DNA of 64,000 nucleotides. It comes from an uncultured Lachnospiraceae bacterium. GTDB lineage: Bacteria > Bacillota > Clostridia > Lachnospirales > Lachnospiraceae. Of the stretch, positions 8,084 to 21,052 are shown piece after piece; position 1 is the first letter of the stretch, and each line of letters starts with the position of its first letter. A program made the translations under genes and the position numbers. The DNA is taken from contig CANTEG010000002.1 in the NCBI GenBank assembly GCA_947652735.1, positions 156,619-220,618 of the forward strand. The letters are read 5' to 3'. The notes under the pieces are model-generated. The model saw nothing but the letters and a program-made list of their open reading frames with translations, searched no databases and had not been told where the DNA came from.

Positions 8084-9487
8084 ATGGAAAAAGACTGGGT
8101 TATACTAAAAATTGATGATGAACGTATGACCGTATCCTTGATGGTGAATAAGCCCGAGGGTGAACAACAGCTATGCCCTCCAAAAGGTTTTATTGAAAAC
8201 TACTTAAAGGAACACGGTGTTACCGCTGGAATTGACAAAAACGCAATTGCCATGTTATATAAACCTGAAAATTATGGACAAGACATTATAGTGGCAAGAG
8301 GAAAACCTCCTATCAATGGTCGTGATGGATTTTATGAATATATGGTTGCACTTGAAGATGACAGGTCAAAGCCTATAATTAAAGAAGATGGTTCCGTAGA
8401 TTACATAAATTCCCTGAAACTTGCAATGATAAAAAAAGATGATTTGTTTGCCGTGTATGTTCCTCCAACACAGGGCAAACCCGGATACACAGTTTGTTCG
8501 GAAGTGGTTCCTCCTGTAAAAGGAAAGGATCTTCGTAAGCTTAGAGGAAAGGGATTTAACGTAAGCGAGGATGGAAAAGAGTATAGGGCGGCACTTGATG
8601 GACGTATACGGAAAAATGAGGATAAAATTATAATTGAAAGTGTATATGAGGTACATGGGGACCTCGATATACAGCAGGGCAATGTAAAATTCAACGGTGA
8701 TGTTGAAGTAAGAGGAGATGTAAGAAGCGGTCTTACAATAGAAACAAACGGAAATATTTACATACACGGGCATGTGGGAGGTTGCAGGCTTATAGCAGGC
8801 GGTACCATTACAATCAGAAAGGGTATTCAGGGCAGAAATAAGTGTACGATGGTTGCAAAAGGTGATGTCGCGTGCAGTTTTATGGAACGGTGCATTGTCA
8901 GTACAGGCGGTGACTTATATGCAAATTACATATTGGACAGTGATGTTGCAGTAAGAGGAAAGATTTATGCCAATTCAAGACAGGGAGTAATTATCGGTGG
9001 AAATGTTTCTGCCATGCAGGGAATTGTTGTAAAGGAAGTAGGGAACACATTGGGAATTGTTACTACCCTACAGTCAGGTGTGTTGCCTGAGCATGTACAA
9101 GACGTGGCAATATACGAGGATCAGCTTAAGAAGCTGTCGGATGATATAGAACTGCTGGAGAAAAATCTTAAAAGGTTTGATGCAATTCCAGGTAACATGC
9201 GGACAAAGGAAAATGAAGAACTGCGTATGCGGATACTGCGGGCAAAGGTAATAGTAGTTACTGATTATAAAAAAATAGAGAGTAAGCTTGAAACTTTAAA
9301 ATCAGAAATGGAAATTGCCAGAGAACAGGCAGTTATCAAAATAACAGGCTATGCTTATAATGGAACCAAAATCATTATGGGGCAGAATGGATTTACTTTA
9401 AAAGACGATGTCAGGGATGTGGAGTACCGTTACGAAAACAACGAGGTAGTCCAGTCGGCAGGAGTATATAAGCGGGGCGTTTATTAA
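8084..9487 (+). CDS. FapA family protein (DUF342)
   Basis: 467 residues with the standard DUF342 layout. The N-terminal alpha/beta part contains GKPPINGRDG and PTQGKPGYTV. It is followed by a right-handed beta-helix of short repeats (about 190-330; for example GDLDIQQGNVKFNGDVEVRG) rich in Gly, Val and Ile, then a coiled coil (about 345-425) and a short C-terminal beta segment. DUF342/FapA proteins occur widely in Clostridia and are linked loosely to flagellar assembly or polar localisation; no enzyme activity is known. It appears to be a single-gene unit with its own promoter and a strong hairpin terminator. Confidence 0.88.
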   Translation: MEKDWVILKIDDERMTVSLMVNKPEGEQQLCPPKGFIENYLKEHGVTAGIDKNAIAMLYKPENYGQDIIVARGKPPINGRDGFYEYMVALEDDRSKPIIKEDGSVDYINSLKLAMIKKDDLFAVYVPPTQGKPGYTVCSEVVPPVKGKDLRKLRGKGFNVSEDGKEYRAALDGRIRKNEDKIIIESVYEVHGDLDIQQGNVKFNGDVEVRGDVRSGLTIETNGNIYIHGHVGGCRLIAGGTITIRKGIQGRNKCTMVAKGDVACSFMERCIVSTGGDLYANYILDSDVAVRGKIYANSRQGVIIGGNVSAMQGIVVKEVGNTLGIVTTLQSGVLPEHVQDVAIYEDQLKKLSDDIELLEKNLKRFDAIPGNMRTKENEELRMRILRAKVIVVTDYKKIESKLETLKSEMEIAREQAVIKITGYAYNGTKIIMGQNGFTLKDDVRDVEYRYENNEVVQSAGVYKRGVY

Positions 9488-9492
9488 GAATC

Positions 9493-9555
9493 AAAAAGAG
9501 CATCTTCACAAAGTGTTTTATCAGATAAGAAAACATTTTATGGAGATGCTCTTTT
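9493..9555. terminator. Long hairpin terminator between convergent genes
   Basis: AAAAGAGCATCT (9494-9505) pairs with AGATGCTCTTTT (9544-9555), and the loop holds a second stem (AAAGTGTTTT against AAAACATTTT). It has A-rich and T-rich flanks on both sides, so it can serve both the FapA gene and the convergent cold-shock gene. Confidence 0.75.
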
Positions 9556-9562
9556 CATTTGA

Positions 9563-9636
9563 CAGGAAACTAAGCTTCCTGCCAGCACGTTCCGTATAGA
9601 GCCTGCTGGGATTCGAACTGTAGCGCTGAATGCGCT
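9563..9636 (-). other. Three small hairpins in the 3' region of the cold-shock gene
   Basis: Short stems are AGCGC/GCGCT (9622-9636), CCAGCA/TGCTGG (9582-9609) and CAGGAA/TTCCTG (9563-9581). They probably form the structured 3' end of the cold-shock mRNA. A TTCGAATCC string here looks tRNA-like, but no T-stem pairs around it. Confidence 0.4.
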
Positions 9637-9649
9637 TCATTCAATTGAA

Positions 9650-9862
9650 TTAGACTGCAACTACATTTACAGCACGTGACTTGCTGGCATCCTTTGGATC
9701 TGCTTCAGTATCAAACGAAACCTTCTGACCCTCGTTTAAGGTTTTAAATCCATCAACCTGAATGGCTGAGAAATGTACGAATACGTCATCTCCTGTTGCA
9801 TCATTTGTAATAAATCCATAACCCTTCTCAGAATTAAACCATTTTACTGTACCGTTGTTCAT
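9650..9862 (-). CDS. cspA: Cold-shock protein, CspA family
   Basis: The real product is 70 residues and starts at the ATG complementary to 9860-9862, preceded by TAGGAGG. It is a single OB-fold cold-shock domain with RNP1 (KGYGFITN, about 13-20) and RNP2 (DVFVHFS, about 26-32), the aromatic surfaces that bind single-stranded RNA or DNA. These proteins act as RNA chaperones. The long upstream open frame is untranslated leader. The leader of about 110 nt from the promoter fits the thermosensing 5' UTRs of csp mRNAs, though temperature control is not shown here. Confidence 0.95.
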
Positions 9863-14967: not shown

Positions 14968-15038
14968 GGGCATTGCTAGTGAGATAGAAAAATTAAATAA
15001 TAGGATAAGGCAATTGTTAATATTAATCCTTTCCATAA

Positions 15039-15231: not shown

Positions 15232-15260
15232 TTGGCAACTTGAAAAAATGCCCCTATAAA
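15232..15260 (+). promoter_or_regulatory. Promoter for the AgrD-like peptide gene
   Basis: TTGGCA at 15232-15237 and TATAAA at 15255-15260 with an exact 17-bp spacer, 31 bp before the start codon. Confidence 0.65.
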
Positions 15261-15291: not shown

Positions 15292-15441
15292 ATGAAATTA
15301 AAATCCAAGATAGTAAATGCAATGTACAATGTGGCAAAAGAGACTGCTGTTGCATCTGTTAACTCCACATGTCATTTTCATTTTTATCAGGAAAAGTTGA
15401 ACCCAAAATTAGATTCGTTAAAAAAGTATAACGAGAAATAA
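15292..15441 (+). CDS. AgrD-like cyclic (thio)lactone autoinducer precursor
   Basis: A 49-residue ORF with a GGAGGTGA site just upstream, its own promoter and a strong terminator. It has the three-part layout of AgrD: a short amphipathic N-terminus (MKLKSKIVNAMYNVAKETA), a core NSTCHFHF and a charged tail (YQEKLNPKLDSLKK). The core has Ser-Thr-Cys followed by four residues, as in staphylococcal YSTCDFIM, where Cys forms the thiolactone ring with the C-terminal residue. The NPKLDSL tail resembles the VPKELTQL tail segment recognised by AgrB. No agrB, agrC or agrA gene is adjacent, so processing and sensing must be encoded elsewhere. Secretion and cyclisation are inferred. Confidence 0.72.
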   Translation: MKLKSKIVNAMYNVAKETAVASVNSTCHFHFYQEKLNPKLDSLKKYNEK

Positions 15442-15703: not shown

Positions 15704-16015
15704 ATGTATAATAAAAAGGAATGCGGAAGTAGAATAAAGCGGCTTCGTGAGGCGACAGGAAAAACACAAAAAGAGGTTGCAGATGAGATGAAGCTTTCCG
15801 TCGATACCATTTGCAAAATAGAACAGGGAAGGCGTTGTCCGTCTATTATGGTCGTGGATGTCCTGCGAAAATATTATAATACTACATCTGATTATATTAT
15901 ATATGGCAATTTGGATACTATAGAAGCATGTAAGGCCATATTGGGAACCGTACCTACAGAAAAGCGGGAGGCTGTGGAGCAGCTTATGGAAAATATTAAG
16001 GATTTAATTAAATGA
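15704..16015 (+). CDS. XRE-family transcriptional regulator
   Basis: 103 residues. An N-terminal helix-turn-helix domain of the Cro/C1 (HTH_3) type spans about residues 9-66; KTQKEVADEMKLSVDTICKI contains the recognition helix. A short helical C-terminus (about 67-103) may dimerise. The start follows AGGAGG. It sits between the AgrD-like gene and the nucleosidase operon, each separated from it by a terminator or promoter, and may control either or both. Small XRE proteins of this size often repress neighbouring accessory or phage-like genes. No ligand-binding domain is visible. Confidence 0.85.
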   Translation: MYNKKECGSRIKRLREATGKTQKEVADEMKLSVDTICKIEQGRRCPSIMVVDVLRKYYNTTSDYIIYGNLDTIEACKAILGTVPTEKREAVEQLMENIKDLIK

Positions 16016-16305: not shown

Positions 16306-17214
16306 ATGAGCGTTTTTCTTTTTATAACTGCGAACGAACATGAACGTGAAGCATTTGAATCAAAATTTGTACGTCACGAAACTAAATTTATACGTGGTAA
16401 AGCGTACTATCTTGGCATTTTCGGCCTGTATCCGGCAGCATATATTCATGTAGATGAACAAGGTGTGACTAATCCATCCGCAATGCCCTTAGTAAGTCTG
16501 TTGGTAAGGGAGTTATCGCCAGCAGCAGTGCTTATGGTAGGAATTGCTTTTGGATTGGATGAGCAAAAGCAAAAAATAGGCGACGTTCTTGTTTCTGATA
16601 AGATTTTACCATATGATTCGCAAAAAATACTGGAAAATAAAACGGAATACAAAGAGATTCCCAAGGAAGTGGGATTTCAATTATTAAATGCTTTTCAGGA
16701 TTATAGAGAATGGGTATATTATTTACCCAATGATGCACGGTCAGAAGTTTATATTGGCTCAATATTGACTGGTTCAAGACTTGTTAATAGCTACGAGTAT
16801 AGAGAACAACTGATTCATGATTTTATAAATTATAGGCCAATTGGTGGAGAAATGGAGGCACAAGGAATTTATTCCATGTGTAAAGAACATGGAATAACTG
16901 AATGGATTATTGTTAAGGGCATTTGTGATTGGGGGTATAAAAAACACGCACCCGACAAAGATGCTAATCAAAAAATTGCTGCACATGCGGCAGTGGATTA
17001 TTGTTTTTATATTTTTTCGCGAGATGGTGTATTTGAATCGCTAATTAAAGCGGATAAAATGTTAAGGCTTGAAAATACAAATATTGGGGAGAGACCTTCA
17101 ACAATTAATATTACTAACATAGAGGGGGATAATTATACAGGTAATGCGATAAATAAAAGTTTGGGAAATGGAAATACATTTAATGCTCCAATTTATTTGG
17201 GTGGCGAAAAATAG
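16306..17214 (+). CDS. Nucleoside phosphorylase-fold effector with C-terminal Asn/Gly motif
   Basis: 302 residues. Residues 1-240 form a purine-nucleoside-phosphorylase/nucleosidase (PNP_UDP_1) domain: LMVGIAFGL near the N-terminal third, GSRLVNS, GGEMEAQGIYSMC (the purine/ribose-binding Glu motif) and IIVKGICDWGYKK (the catalytic-Asp region) followed by a helix. Such domains are common effectors in bacterial immune proteins, where they are thought to cleave nucleosides or nucleotides. The tail (about 266-299), NITNIEGDNYTGNAINKS with repeated GN units, matches a segment of the next protein and resembles bacterial amyloid-signalling motifs. It is the first gene of an AT-rich four-gene operon. 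Substrate and activity are unproven. Confidence 0.8.
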   Translation: MSVFLFITANEHEREAFESKFVRHETKFIRGKAYYLGIFGLYPAAYIHVDEQGVTNPSAMPLVSLLVRELSPAAVLMVGIAFGLDEQKQKIGDVLVSDKILPYDSQKILENKTEYKEIPKEVGFQLLNAFQDYREWVYYLPNDARSEVYIGSILTGSRLVNSYEYREQLIHDFINYRPIGGEMEAQGIYSMCKEHGITEWIIVKGICDWGYKKHAPDKDANQKIAAHAAVDYCFYIFSRDGVFESLIKADKMLRLENTNIGERPSTINITNIEGDNYTGNAINKSLGNGNTFNAPIYLGGEK

Positions 17215-17223
17215 GGGGACAAT

Positions 17224-18894
17224 ATGGACAAGTGTGAGGAAATGTCTACGGCGGACAAATCAATAGATGCCGATGAGGCTAGACCTGAAGGGGGAGAATC
17301 TGATTCCCTTTCTTCGGAAAAATTAATTAGTGATGGGAACATTTCAAAAAGCAGCGTGGAAATTGTAAAGAGCATATCACAAATTTTAGAAAATGGAAGA
17401 GTAACTTCCGTCAATATAACAATTAACGATATAAAAGGAGATAATTATAATGACAATGCAACAAATAACGGTGCAGGGCATGGTAACATATACAATGACC
17501 AGGTAAGAATCAATACAAATTACACGGAAACGGCCACTAATATGGAAAAAACAGGAACCTTAAATCTTTCTGATTATGATGCAGTGTATCAGTATATTAA
17601 AGATGAACAACAAAATCCGTACTGTTCTTTGTTAATTGTGCTTGCGATTTTTGATAACAGTCAATTTGATTTGGTATGTGATGAAGCCAAAATTCTTTAC
17701 GGTATACTTGTTGAAGACCATAAAGAAATTATAAATGAAAAAGGCGAAATCATTGCAATTAAACGGGAACCGTTTGAGGTTTCACGGCAAGAAGCAGGTA
17801 TAAAATTTGGTGTTAAATTTTATCAGGATGCACTGGTTACATTTGGTGGCAGAATTATAACAGATTTTATTGGCTTTTCTTCAAAAGAGCATGGGCTAAA
17901 TATTTTGCGGTGTATATTTTCAGAATTCGTAGAATTGAAAGACAAAGTAACCGCTTTTTTGACAAAACTGATTTGCTCTGAAAAAATCACATTGTATGCA
18001 GCAGCAATAAATACATTGAAAAATCTTTGTGACATTAATCCTGAATACTTTATTTCTAAAATAGTAATTAGATTAGTACAAAACAAAAGCATTTCTTCGG
18101 ATATTGCCATTGCACAGGTTTTATGTTCTATCGCGGAGAATTCAAAAAATGAATATAGTGCTGATAAATATTTAGCATTTATACCAAATATGGGAAAAGA
18201 TATACATTATTATGTTATTATATTAATGATGTGCAAAACTTTGTCATATAAACGGGATAAAATTGGTAAATTAATCCGCCCTATTTTATGGGAGCTTATA
18301 ACTCAGCCTAAGCTTCAGTTTGTACTTAATAATTTTAAAATAGACTTGCCGGATGAAGAAAATTTTATAAATAATATAGACCTCTTTTTTACTATAGGCA
18401 ATCGGTATGCTGAGTATTATATAGCACTGATATCAGAAATATATAATATTTTGAAGAAAATGAAACGCAATGATGAACAACGGGACTTTGTTCTTTTAAT
18501 TGCATTGCTGTTCATTCGCGAGGATTATAACGAGAGTTGTTTAAATACTGAAAATCCTTCAAAATTTAAAGATATGATTTTTATACGTATCATTTTACGT
18601 GATGATGAAACTTCTGATAAGTTGATTTTTTTGTGGACAGAGTTATTAAAAAGTAGGAAATTTAAGACGATAACGGAGGAAATTTTAGAAAAATATTTAA
18701 TATTACGAAATGGCTTTGTAAATGAAGAATTGGAGTATTTGAAAATTGAAGCTTTTTTTTCAAAATTGGCAGGAGAAGAAAGAATTCATAACAATATAAT
18801 GTTTTTTCTTATGAATATCTCAACACGTCCTCAAAATCCAATTGCGCTAGCTGAAAAAATATATAAAAGAATTGGAGATAAAAAAAATGGTTAA
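17224..18894 (+). CDS. Uncharacterised helical protein sharing the effector's Asn/Gly motif
   Basis: 556 residues of no family I recognise. Residues 1-55 are charged and probably disordered. Residues 63-97 (NITINDIKGDNYNDNATNNG and following GHGNIYND) match the C-terminal tail of the upstream nucleosidase-fold protein. Residues about 115-550 are predicted all-helical and leucine-rich, with a loose repeat feel reminiscent of HEAT/ARM solenoids; no ATPase P-loop is visible. It starts 9 bp after the previous stop, with GGGGGA as ribosome site, and overlaps the next gene. A sensor or scaffold that recruits the effector through the shared motif is my inference. Confidence 0.65.
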   Translation: MDKCEEMSTADKSIDADEARPEGGESDSLSSEKLISDGNISKSSVEIVKSISQILENGRVTSVNITINDIKGDNYNDNATNNGAGHGNIYNDQVRINTNYTETATNMEKTGTLNLSDYDAVYQYIKDEQQNPYCSLLIVLAIFDNSQFDLVCDEAKILYGILVEDHKEIINEKGEIIAIKREPFEVSRQEAGIKFGVKFYQDALVTFGGRIITDFIGFSSKEHGLNILRCIFSEFVELKDKVTAFLTKLICSEKITLYAAAINTLKNLCDINPEYFISKIVIRLVQNKSISSDIAIAQVLCSIAENSKNEYSADKYLAFIPNMGKDIHYYVIILMMCKTLSYKRDKIGKLIRPILWELITQPKLQFVLNNFKIDLPDEENFINNIDLFFTIGNRYAEYYIALISEIYNILKKMKRNDEQRDFVLLIALLFIREDYNESCLNTENPSKFKDMIFIRIILRDDETSDKLIFLWTELLKSRKFKTITEEILEKYLILRNGFVNEELEYLKIEAFFSKLAGEERIHNNIMFFLMNISTRPQNPIALAEKIYKRIGDKKNG

Positions 18895-20026
18895 TATGAA
18901 TCCTATTATAAAAAATGTACCATATAAATATTCATGGCTTGATAAAGCACCAGTTGTTCCAATTGATACAGCATTGGTTCTATATCCACATGATTCGCGG
19001 GAACATTGTAATGTTTATTTACAAGAAGATACAGTATTTACTGAAGCTATTAAAAAGTGGCATTTTGATAGGCTTGTACACATAACGTTACAGCCATTCG
19101 AGTTTCAGTATGCTTTTCGTTTTCCCTTGTCTAATGGAATGAATCAGAGGGTAGATATTACATATAACTTTATTGTATCTGTAAAACCTGATAAAGATGC
19201 TATAAAGGTAATTTTAAAAAATAATGTAACTGATATTTCTGAGCCGATATTGGAATGTTTTGATGTTTTTATATTGGACAGACCCTATAATTCGTTAGAA
19301 GTATCTACATTGGAAGCAGATGCATTGAAAAAGATTAGAGATGTGGTATCCCGGATAGCATATCTTAAAGTACAAGTGACCCAAGTTGCATCTTCTGTTG
19401 ATGACGTATCCCAAAAGCAGATTGAAGACGACAAAGCAGACAAATTGCGTCAGGCAGAAGTTGAGGCAATACAGAGAAAGCTTGCCCGTGACAAGGAAGA
19501 AGCGGAGGCTCGTAGAAAAGAGGCAGAAATTGCAAGGGAAAGGGCAGAAACGGAAAAGCAATTATCCCAAATACGTCATCAGGCAGAACTCGAAGAACAG
19601 CAACATAATATTGATAAAAAAACAAAAGAGGTGGCTGCTGAAAAAGCATATAAACTTCAACAAGCAGAAAATGTAGCTGCAATTGCACAAGCACAGCTTG
19701 AAAATATTAAATTGTTTGGGCTTGAGAATTTAGCCGCAATCGATTCTACATATCAAGGACATATTAATAGCCAGCAGGCTCAATTAGACCTCGAAAGAGA
19801 TAATAAAATGAAAGACCTCGAATTAGTCAAGCAAAAAATTTTGCTTGTAAAGGAAATGGTGGAGGCTGGTGTTATTGATGATATGACGGCAGGACAAATG
19901 ACACAGCAATTGTTGCTTGAAGGTTCTCAACCTACAACATCTCCAGCTTTAACATCTTCATCTACTGCTAAAATAGAGGATGAAAATATTATTAATATAA
20001 GTGAGGATGGAAAAGTTGATGTCTGA
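18887..20026 (+). CDS. SPFH/band 7-like protein with long coiled coil
   Basis: About 379 residues from the ATG at 18887 (GGAGA 7 bp upstream; it overlaps the previous gene's stop). The N-terminal 165 residues are mainly beta with a pattern like SPFH/band 7 domains (for example VDITYNFIVSVKPDKD, then ALKKIRDVVSRIA). A highly charged coiled coil (about 180-290) rich in Glu, Lys, Arg and Ala follows, then a second helical stretch and a disordered Ser/Thr tail. No N-terminal membrane hairpin is obvious, so it may be cytosolic or membrane-tethered through the next gene product. SPFH proteins form oligomeric membrane scaffolds. SPFH assignment is moderate; coiled coil is certain. Confidence 0.65.
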   Translation: MVNMNPIIKNVPYKYSWLDKAPVVPIDTALVLYPHDSREHCNVYLQEDTVFTEAIKKWHFDRLVHITLQPFEFQYAFRFPLSNGMNQRVDITYNFIVSVKPDKDAIKVILKNNVTDISEPILECFDVFILDRPYNSLEVSTLEADALKKIRDVVSRIAYLKVQVTQVASSVDDVSQKQIEDDKADKLRQAEVEAIQRKLARDKEEAEARRKEAEIARERAETEKQLSQIRHQAELEEQQHNIDKKTKEVAAEKAYKLQQAENVAAIAQAQLENIKLFGLENLAAIDSTYQGHINSQQAQLDLERDNKMKDLELVKQKILLVKEMVEAGVIDDMTAGQMTQQLLLEGSQPTTSPALTSSSTAKIEDENIINISEDGKVDV

Positions 20027-20591
20027 GTATGGAAAGCAGATAAAAGCATTCTTCCATTTTATGTTTAAACATCTTTTTGAGATTGAGTTTGGGTTTCGGG
20101 TCGTTGTTGAAGTGTTATTTTTCATGTGCATCTGTTATATATTGCTAATGTTGTTATTTAGACTTATACATAAAATAGTTTATAAGCTTAAGGATATGGT
20201 CGATTTTTTGTATATAGAGCTAATAGCACCGTTGTGGGTAAGATTATACGAAAAAATTGCGTTTTCCACGAATAATCCTAATTGGCAAGAACGTGCAAAT
20301 GAAATGAAGGAAGGTTTTAAGAAAAATAAGGATGAGAGAACAAATACTTTTCAAAATAGCAAAAATGTGAAGAAGAAACATACGGCATGGTGGATTTTTT
20401 CTTATATCGTTTTGGTTGTGTGGATAGTTGGTTTTCATTATTGTGGTGAAGAAAAGCGTGGTAGTTATGAAGTTTTCTTTTTAGGAGAACAGATTATATT
20501 AGATTTTGAAGATTGGATGACTAATACGTGGCTTGATACTGATGAACATGTTGTTGAATGCTATTTTCACGGTACAATAGAAGCAAATTAA
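20019..20591 (+). CDS. Two-TM membrane protein, last gene of the accessory operon
   Basis: About 190 residues from the ATG at 20019, overlapping the previous stop; an ATG at 20007 or GTG at 20001 are alternatives. Two strong hydrophobic segments (about 22-45 and 122-140) flank a basic, Lys-rich cytoplasmic stretch. A short acidic outer segment follows the second helix. No known family is recognised. Tight coupling to the SPFH-like gene suggests it anchors that complex in the membrane or perturbs the membrane as an effector. Confidence 0.6.
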   Translation: MSEYGKQIKAFFHFMFKHLFEIEFGFRVVVEVLFFMCICYILLMLLFRLIHKIVYKLKDMVDFLYIELIAPLWVRLYEKIAFSTNNPNWQERANEMKEGFKKNKDERTNTFQNSKNVKKKHTAWWIFSYIVLVVWIVGFHYCGEEKRGSYEVFFLGEQIILDFEDWMTNTWLDTDEHVVECYFHGTIEAN

Positions 20592-20742
20592 AAAGACATA
20601 ATGATAAGTAATTGTTTTATTTAATCAATTATTCCTGAAATAATGGCAGATGTAAAATATGGGCATTTTTTCAACCCAGGGATGGGAATGAAAAGTCTGT
20701 TGAAATGAAATTAGACTACTGGTTTTTGCCAACCGCCTCTGG

Positions 20743-20800: not shown

Positions 20801-21052
20801 TTGAGAGATTATATTGGGGAGCGTGCCATAAGTGTGGCTCAGTTTATTGTAGATAATGGAGCCACGGTGCGACAGGCTGCCAAAAAGTTTGGGGTAAGTA
20901 AATCAACGGTACACATGGACGTAGCTGAACGTTTACAATACATAAACCCATCGTTGGCGGCAGAGGTGCGAAAGGTTCTTGACAAAAATAAAGAGGAGCG
21001 GCATGTAAGGGGAGGTATGGCAACAAGGGAAAAATATTTAAATCATAAGTAA
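20801..21052 (+). CDS. spoIIID: Sporulation transcription factor SpoIIID
   Basis: 83 residues that match SpoIIID along the whole length: the N-terminal RDYIGERAI, the helix-turn-helix ATVRQAAKKFGVSKSTVHMD (about 21-40), RLQYINPSLA.EV and the basic RHVRGGMATREKY tail that contacts DNA. SpoIIID switches the mother-cell programme from sigma-E to sigma-K during spore formation, as activator and repressor. The start is TTG at 20801, with GAGG 9 bp upstream. A sigma-E promoter lies just before it. Its presence indicates an endospore-forming lineage. Confidence 0.95.
   Translation: MRDYIGERAISVAQFIVDNGATVRQAAKKFGVSKSTVHMDVAERLQYINPSLAAEVRKVLDKNKEERHVRGGMATREKYLNHK

Follow-up and report, generated by a model that had tools for sequence, protein, structure and literature searches.

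What is a block of four tightly packed, AT-rich genes doing next to spoIIID in the genome of an uncultured Lachnospiraceae bacterium? The block lies in a stretch of 64,000 nucleotides, called the window here, and all positions are counted from its first nucleotide. An initial annotation, made from the sequence of the window, had proposed a phage-defence or cell-death module in which a helical protein senses and recruits a PNP-fold nucleosidase, with a complex of an SPFH protein and a TM protein at the membrane. We find that the effector-type PNP, the motif-linked helical partner and a neighbourhood that recurs elsewhere all hold up; the SPFH identity gains no support from sequence.

Gene layout and genomic site

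All four genes are forward-strand entries of the ORF list. Gene 1 (16306..17214, 302 aa) encodes the PNP-fold effector and gene 2 (17224..18894, 556 aa) the helical protein. Gene 3 is listed as 18887..20026 and may start at 18887 or 18896, with 18872 as another start, giving 376-384 aa depending on the choice. Gene 4 (20001..20591, 196 aa) encodes a membrane protein with two TM helices by hydropathy. The tight packing described earlier, with a 9-bp gap followed by two overlaps, is what the forward-strand ORFs of 16306-20591 give. The block is indeed AT-rich: in 1-kb steps, GC content is 28-36% across 15-21 kb versus 36-47% in the remaining steps of the window. Pfam also bears out its reported neighbours, an HTH_3/XRE regulator directly upstream (15704..16015, forward strand; HTH_31 1.8e-11, HTH_3 1.6e-10) and SpoIIID downstream (20801-21052; E = 1.9e-39). 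The XRE protein is a possible regulator of the module, and its membership is uncertain. Terminator-like sites are in excess of shuffled sequences (11 versus 3.4); promoter-like sites are not (33 versus 31.8).

Close homology to a genome of the same genus (G028) starts at 20721, and homology to a second genome (G001) stops at 14968. None of the genomes compared shows both flanks at once, and an empty site was therefore not observed. In G028, the DNA before spoIIID (L037, 5173-11289) holds genes for an SF1-type helicase, a Schlafen AlbA_2 protein and an integrase; the best PADLOC match of the helicase is Mokosh MkoA (6e-46, over the helicase regions). Thus, the module occupies a slot that holds defence-like genes in a same-genus genome, and spoIIID is a possible defence hotspot.

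Outside both the XRE gene and the module lies an 18-nt inverted repeat (15240-15257 and 20657-20674, 94% complementary), whose two arms are the sole two perfect matches in the genome. As ends of a mobile element the repeats are only suggestive, and they were not accepted as such: exact pairs of 14 bases with more than 4 kb between them turned up in 13 of 300 simulated sequences. Just inside the left repeat and ahead of the XRE gene, a 49-aa ORF (15292-15441, forward strand) resembles an AgrD-type cyclic lactone autoinducer peptide (TIGR04223, 18.5 bits with a cut-off of 19).

The effector, its helical partner and their shared tag

At the sequence level, the PNP fold assigned to gene 1 is confirmed by its match to PF01048 (E = 3.3e-10; 40.2 bits, cut-off 25.1). 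Aligned with the PNP of a related locus (L004, below) and with the genome's own nucleosidase, the protein retains E13, E182/E184 and D208, which we take to be the positions of the catalytic glutamates and aspartate of MTA/SAH nucleosidases. In fold and catalytic residues, gene 1 appears to qualify as a PNP-superfamily immune effector, and its matches among the PADLOC effector models are PN-superfamily (1.9e-15) and PDC-M60C (1.7e-12). It is distinct from the housekeeping enzyme. With the NF004079 model, gene 1 scores 44 bits against a cut-off of 169, versus 263 bits for the genome's own nucleosidase, whose gene lies on another contig. These scores support the earlier view of gene 1 as an effector-type member of the superfamily rather than an ordinary MTA/SAH nucleosidase. 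A PF01048 search of the genome listed three other phosphorylase-superfamily genes, the housekeeping nucleosidase among them, and missed the window copy; such a search can therefore overlook distant members.

The window PNP has no match in the phage collection. The only plasmid PNP found is on Rhizobium etli plasmid pA (L041, 5188-6738), where it adjoins HD-domain and DNA-methyltransferase genes in a possible conflict locus. This protein (H1, 34.7% identity) was set aside as a relative: it makes up the C-terminal domain of a larger protein, and no tag was noticed by eye.

The product of gene 2 may be a HEAT/ARM-like helical protein. Its Pfam match to RTP1_C1 falls just under the cut-off (25.3 versus 25.9 bits), and an AlphaFold2 model from three sequences places successive helices over residues 221-555 at low confidence (mean pLDDT 42.6). 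Searches of Pfam at E <= 1 give no match to an NLR domain (NB-ARC, NACHT) or other NTPase domain in this protein, nor to NB-ARC or NACHT in its homologues from L004 and L007; for the homologue from L011, the same holds at E <= 0.05.

The two proteins had been described as sharing a motif, and BLASTP finds it readily. Residues 263-299 at the C-terminus of the PNP (17092..17202, forward strand) match residues 59-97 in the N-terminal part of the helical protein (17398..17514, forward strand) with 41% identity and E = 3e-6, which links the helical protein to the PNP as its partner. As a control, every C-terminal 60 residues was compared with every N-terminal 150 residues among 51 non-overlapping window ORFs of at least 100 aa, which were chosen greedily and are not all necessarily genes. 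The PNP/helical pair tops the 2,550 ordered tail/head comparisons with a score of 82 (next 52, mean 24). The PNP tail and helical head of L004 match each other as well (E = 2e-6). In both of these loci, then, adjacent genes carry like motifs at the C-terminus of the predicted effector and the N-terminus of the putative receptor. The tag is short; in the PNP loci it is rich in Gly and Asn, and a crude count gives it beta-prone flanks.

Relatives and the exchange of the effector

A scan of genome contigs with the helical protein gave two relatives among 20 candidate stretches, L004 and L005, both from MAGs labelled Lachnospiraceae. In samples of genomes, which overlap and count the window's own genome where it was drawn, the protein was found in 1 of 145 relatives, 2 of 391 in the class (one spurious), 2 of 397 in the family, 1 of 334 in the order and 1 of 398 in the phylum, as well as in 2 of 145 relatives of G832; the first of these samples and that of the class were searched with a single-sequence query. 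Like G865, G832 is a member of the window's own family. By these counts, the helical protein is rare among the sequences covered. The window and L011 helical proteins have no match in the plasmid and phage collections, the L011 gene 3 protein and TIR none in plasmids, and the viral contigs scanned hold no relative. The spurious match in the class (G429, E = 2.9e-4) was rejected: its neighbours are apparent ruvB and ruvA genes of the opposite strand, and the 3.2 kb available there contain neither a PNP nor a TIR gene.

Four loci beyond the window carry the helical protein, and the upstream effector can be read in three of them. With the window included, the effector is visible in four of the five loci, two with PNP and two with TIR. 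L004 has PNP and helical genes and, past what looks like a deletion, no more of gene 3 than its end. This is a damaged copy of the module (9389-9676), in which the helical frame ends early. The L005 contig starts inside the helical gene and continues with a full gene 3. In L007/L012 the order is TIR, helical gene and a gene 3 cut by the contig end; in L011 it is TIR, helical gene, gene 3 and a gene for a two-TM protein. In both L007 and L011, the gene ahead of the helical homologue matches TIR_2 with E = 2e-11.

Gene 3 or its remnant follows the helical gene in five of five loci. A two-TM gene is present in two of the three loci that are readable beyond a whole gene 3; no fourth gene is found in L005, or after the gene 3 remnant of L004. 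Thus the co-occurrence of the four genes, on which the initial annotation had staked its proposal, stands in part. Effector, helical gene and gene 3 recur elsewhere, but no other locus combines all four genes with a PNP, the one complete relative (L011) having TIR in its place.

Sequence comparison firmly establishes the helical proteins of the PNP and TIR loci as homologues. The window protein is 49% identical to that of L004 and 54% identical to that of L005 over the available part; across PNP and TIR loci, scores exceed shuffles with z of 25-39 (37-39 for the window against L007 and L011; profile E = 3.9e-19). The effector slot is therefore swappable, with PNP or TIR on a homologous helical partner. 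Correspondence of genes 3 and 4 between the two kinds of loci rests on position and layout. Gene 3 of L007 and L011 occupies the same position as that of the window, and kinship is not established by hhalign (probability 0.9%, E = 0.064) or shuffles (z of 2.6-5.8). The gene 3 homologue in L005 is 39% identical to that of the window; a search of 117 relatives with window gene 3 returned its own genome only.

The tag changes along with the effector. The TIR tail of L007 matches its own helical partner weakly (E = 0.008, z 4.4), and that of L011, which differs from the L007 tail at few positions, gives no significant match to its partner when the pair is taken alone (z 0.9). In a matrix of scores, the PNP tails reach 82 and 79 on their own partners, 39 and 46 on the other PNP partner and 23-26 on the TIR partners, and the TIR tails 33-50 on TIR partners and 20-33 on PNP partners. 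Over a 20-column ungapped block, anchored by eye on a GD dipeptide, the cognate pairs of the window and L004 share 11 of 20 residues each versus 6-8 of 20 for non-cognate comparisons (8 tail to tail, 6 head to head, 8 and 6 crossed), a preference that comes from two PNP loci and holds although their helical proteins are nearly half identical overall. Each PNP tail is thus closer to its own partner's head than to the tail of the sister locus. A binding pair that co-evolved or underwent co-conversion would leave such a pattern; two genes descending separately would not. With five loci in all and both TIR copies from one genus, the independent tag changes are few.

Membrane side, mechanism and known systems

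Gene 3 had been labelled SPFH/coiled-coil. By a crude propensity count, its N-terminal half is rich in strands and is followed by a long stretch of helix, probably a coiled coil. This layout, beside a gene for a membrane protein, is like that of SPFH/flotillin scaffolds in the part of the literature drawn on here (PMC11260169), and is compatible with an SPFH protein without demonstrating one. Unlike those scaffolds, gene 3 has no Pfam match to SPFH/Band 7, and sequence searches of Pfam and the PDB lend the label no support. At E <= 1, neither the window nor the L005 protein matches any Pfam family, Band 7/SPFH included, and the L007 protein has a single weak, unrelated match (0.15) that is not Band 7/SPFH. 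At E <= 0.05 the L011 protein has no match, and PDB searches with gene 3 return weak, unrelated matches only (best E = 0.036).

In gene 4, hydropathy places TM helices at residues 34-52 and 131-149. Charge counts show that the loop is basic and the C-terminal part acidic, which probably puts the C-terminus outside. The two-TM protein of L011 has the same layout plus an SH3_3 domain; its similarity to gene 4 is not above shuffles (345 of 500 reach the score), and only the layout agrees.

We lean, with modest confidence, towards reading the cluster as an immune or programmed-death module that is linked to the membrane and whose effectors, which would destroy nucleotides, are interchangeable. Gene 3 and the two-TM protein would together make up a complex at the membrane that senses infection or an event at the envelope, and the helical protein, placed there because of its recurring neighbourhood, would act on this complex as receptor or relay. 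Upon activation, the helical N-terminal tags would come together and either seed the matching C-terminal tag of the effector or bind it directly. The putative mode is homotypic templating as in amyloid-signalling NLR/effector pairs, with physical binding and an amyloid form both presumed. Clustering would then activate the effector, a PNP-type nucleosidase here and a TIR domain in the relatives. To go by the effector families, a nucleotide pool would be destroyed (ATP or another purine nucleotide, or NAD+ for TIR), and cell and phage would be stopped, as in abortive infection.

An alternative that departs from this reading at the tag step only takes the tag as an ordinary docking or beta-strand pairing motif, not an amyloid, with stoichiometric recruitment of the effector to the membrane scaffold. 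We regard this as a serious contender with a little under an even chance. The amyloid nature of the tag is putative, and a short, Gly/Asn-rich stretch with beta-prone flanks would suit docking too; against this, adjacent genes with like tags at effector C-terminus and receptor N-terminus reproduce the layout of NLR-associated amyloid signalling (PMC7889193). Unlikely, in our view, is a death module that has nothing to do with phage and is self-regulated or toxin-antitoxin-like, in which the helical protein silences the effector by way of the tag and lets it go once the two-TM protein senses envelope stress. The anatomy would be the same, with an XRE regulator adjoining the module and a two-TM protein whose C-terminal part is probably outside and, in L011, bears the SH3_3 domain; but like tags on both partners would fit homotypic co-assembly better than inhibition, and other conflict systems are reported to take either PNP or TIR in a single slot (PMC7159879). 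A metabolic or envelope operon, with a nucleoside salvage enzyme, a membrane scaffold and an incidental low-complexity stretch for a tag, is highly improbable even though the PNP catalytic residues look intact: the effector swap, with TIR in two loci and a tag that differs with the effector, already largely refutes it, and the rare distribution and the genome's separate housekeeping nucleosidase and two other phosphorylase-superfamily genes also argue against it.

BASS motifs of NLR-associated bacterial amyloid signalling pairs, of which there are ten families, were reportedly described by Dyrka et al. in 2020 (see also PMC7889193, PMC8086366). In the part of PMC7889193 drawn on here, these motifs lie at the receptor N-terminus and effector C-terminus, with TIR among the effectors. 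The module resembles such pairs in its adjacent genes, in its effector C-terminal and receptor N-terminal motifs that are alike within a locus, and in its TIR effectors, a likeness judged by the layout as described. It differs in having a helical protein without a recognised NTPase domain in the receptor slot, and in the extra gene 3 and two-TM genes. The hosts differ as well: that of the module makes SpoIIID and two of its relatives are labelled Lachnospiraceae, whereas filamentous actinobacteria and cyanobacteria are stressed in what PMC7889193 says of distribution in the part used. With the NLR domain missing, the module is not filed as a member of the NLR-associated amyloid family; it may still work like one.

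ATP-cleaving PNP immune effectors occur in Detocs and CBASS. Gene 1 is similar in being a predicted PNP-superfamily effector outside metabolism that matches PADLOC effector models; unlike in those systems, none of the four proteins is by Pfam a two-component or CD-NTase partner. In filling one slot with PNP or TIR, the module loci are also like the NTP-dependent, vWA-MoxR type conflict systems as covered in part of PMC7159879; unlike these, the four proteins have no vWA or MoxR/AAA match in Pfam. The earlier statement that this gene combination is not recognisable as a described system agrees with PADLOC: at E <= 1, genes 2 and 4 are without a match and the LmuB matches of gene 3 are weak (0.014), and at E <= 0.001 nothing matches any of the four L011 proteins. 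A literature search by title and start of abstract found nothing on the combination; its coverage of subscription papers is thin, which makes it weak evidence of novelty. The module looks like an undescribed cell-suicide or anti-virus system.

A broader proposal is that of envelope-wired, amyloid-like signalling without NLRs, in which the two-TM protein, with a domain outside, and gene 3, perhaps a cage of the SPFH type, make up a membrane-anchored sensor that signals to a HEAT-like receptor; the receptor would fire PNP or TIR effectors by templating between matched tags. We offer it tentatively, as a possibility that we would not count on. To our knowledge, the trigger is not known for many PNP and TIR effectors; if the proposal is true, these effectors would gain an envelope-side input, and tag-templated signalling would no longer be confined to NLR receptors and would include a Firmicutes line that forms spores, as the presence of SpoIIID indicates. 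With a conserved helical partner shared by two PNP and two TIR loci, the module would offer a compact natural experiment in specificity.
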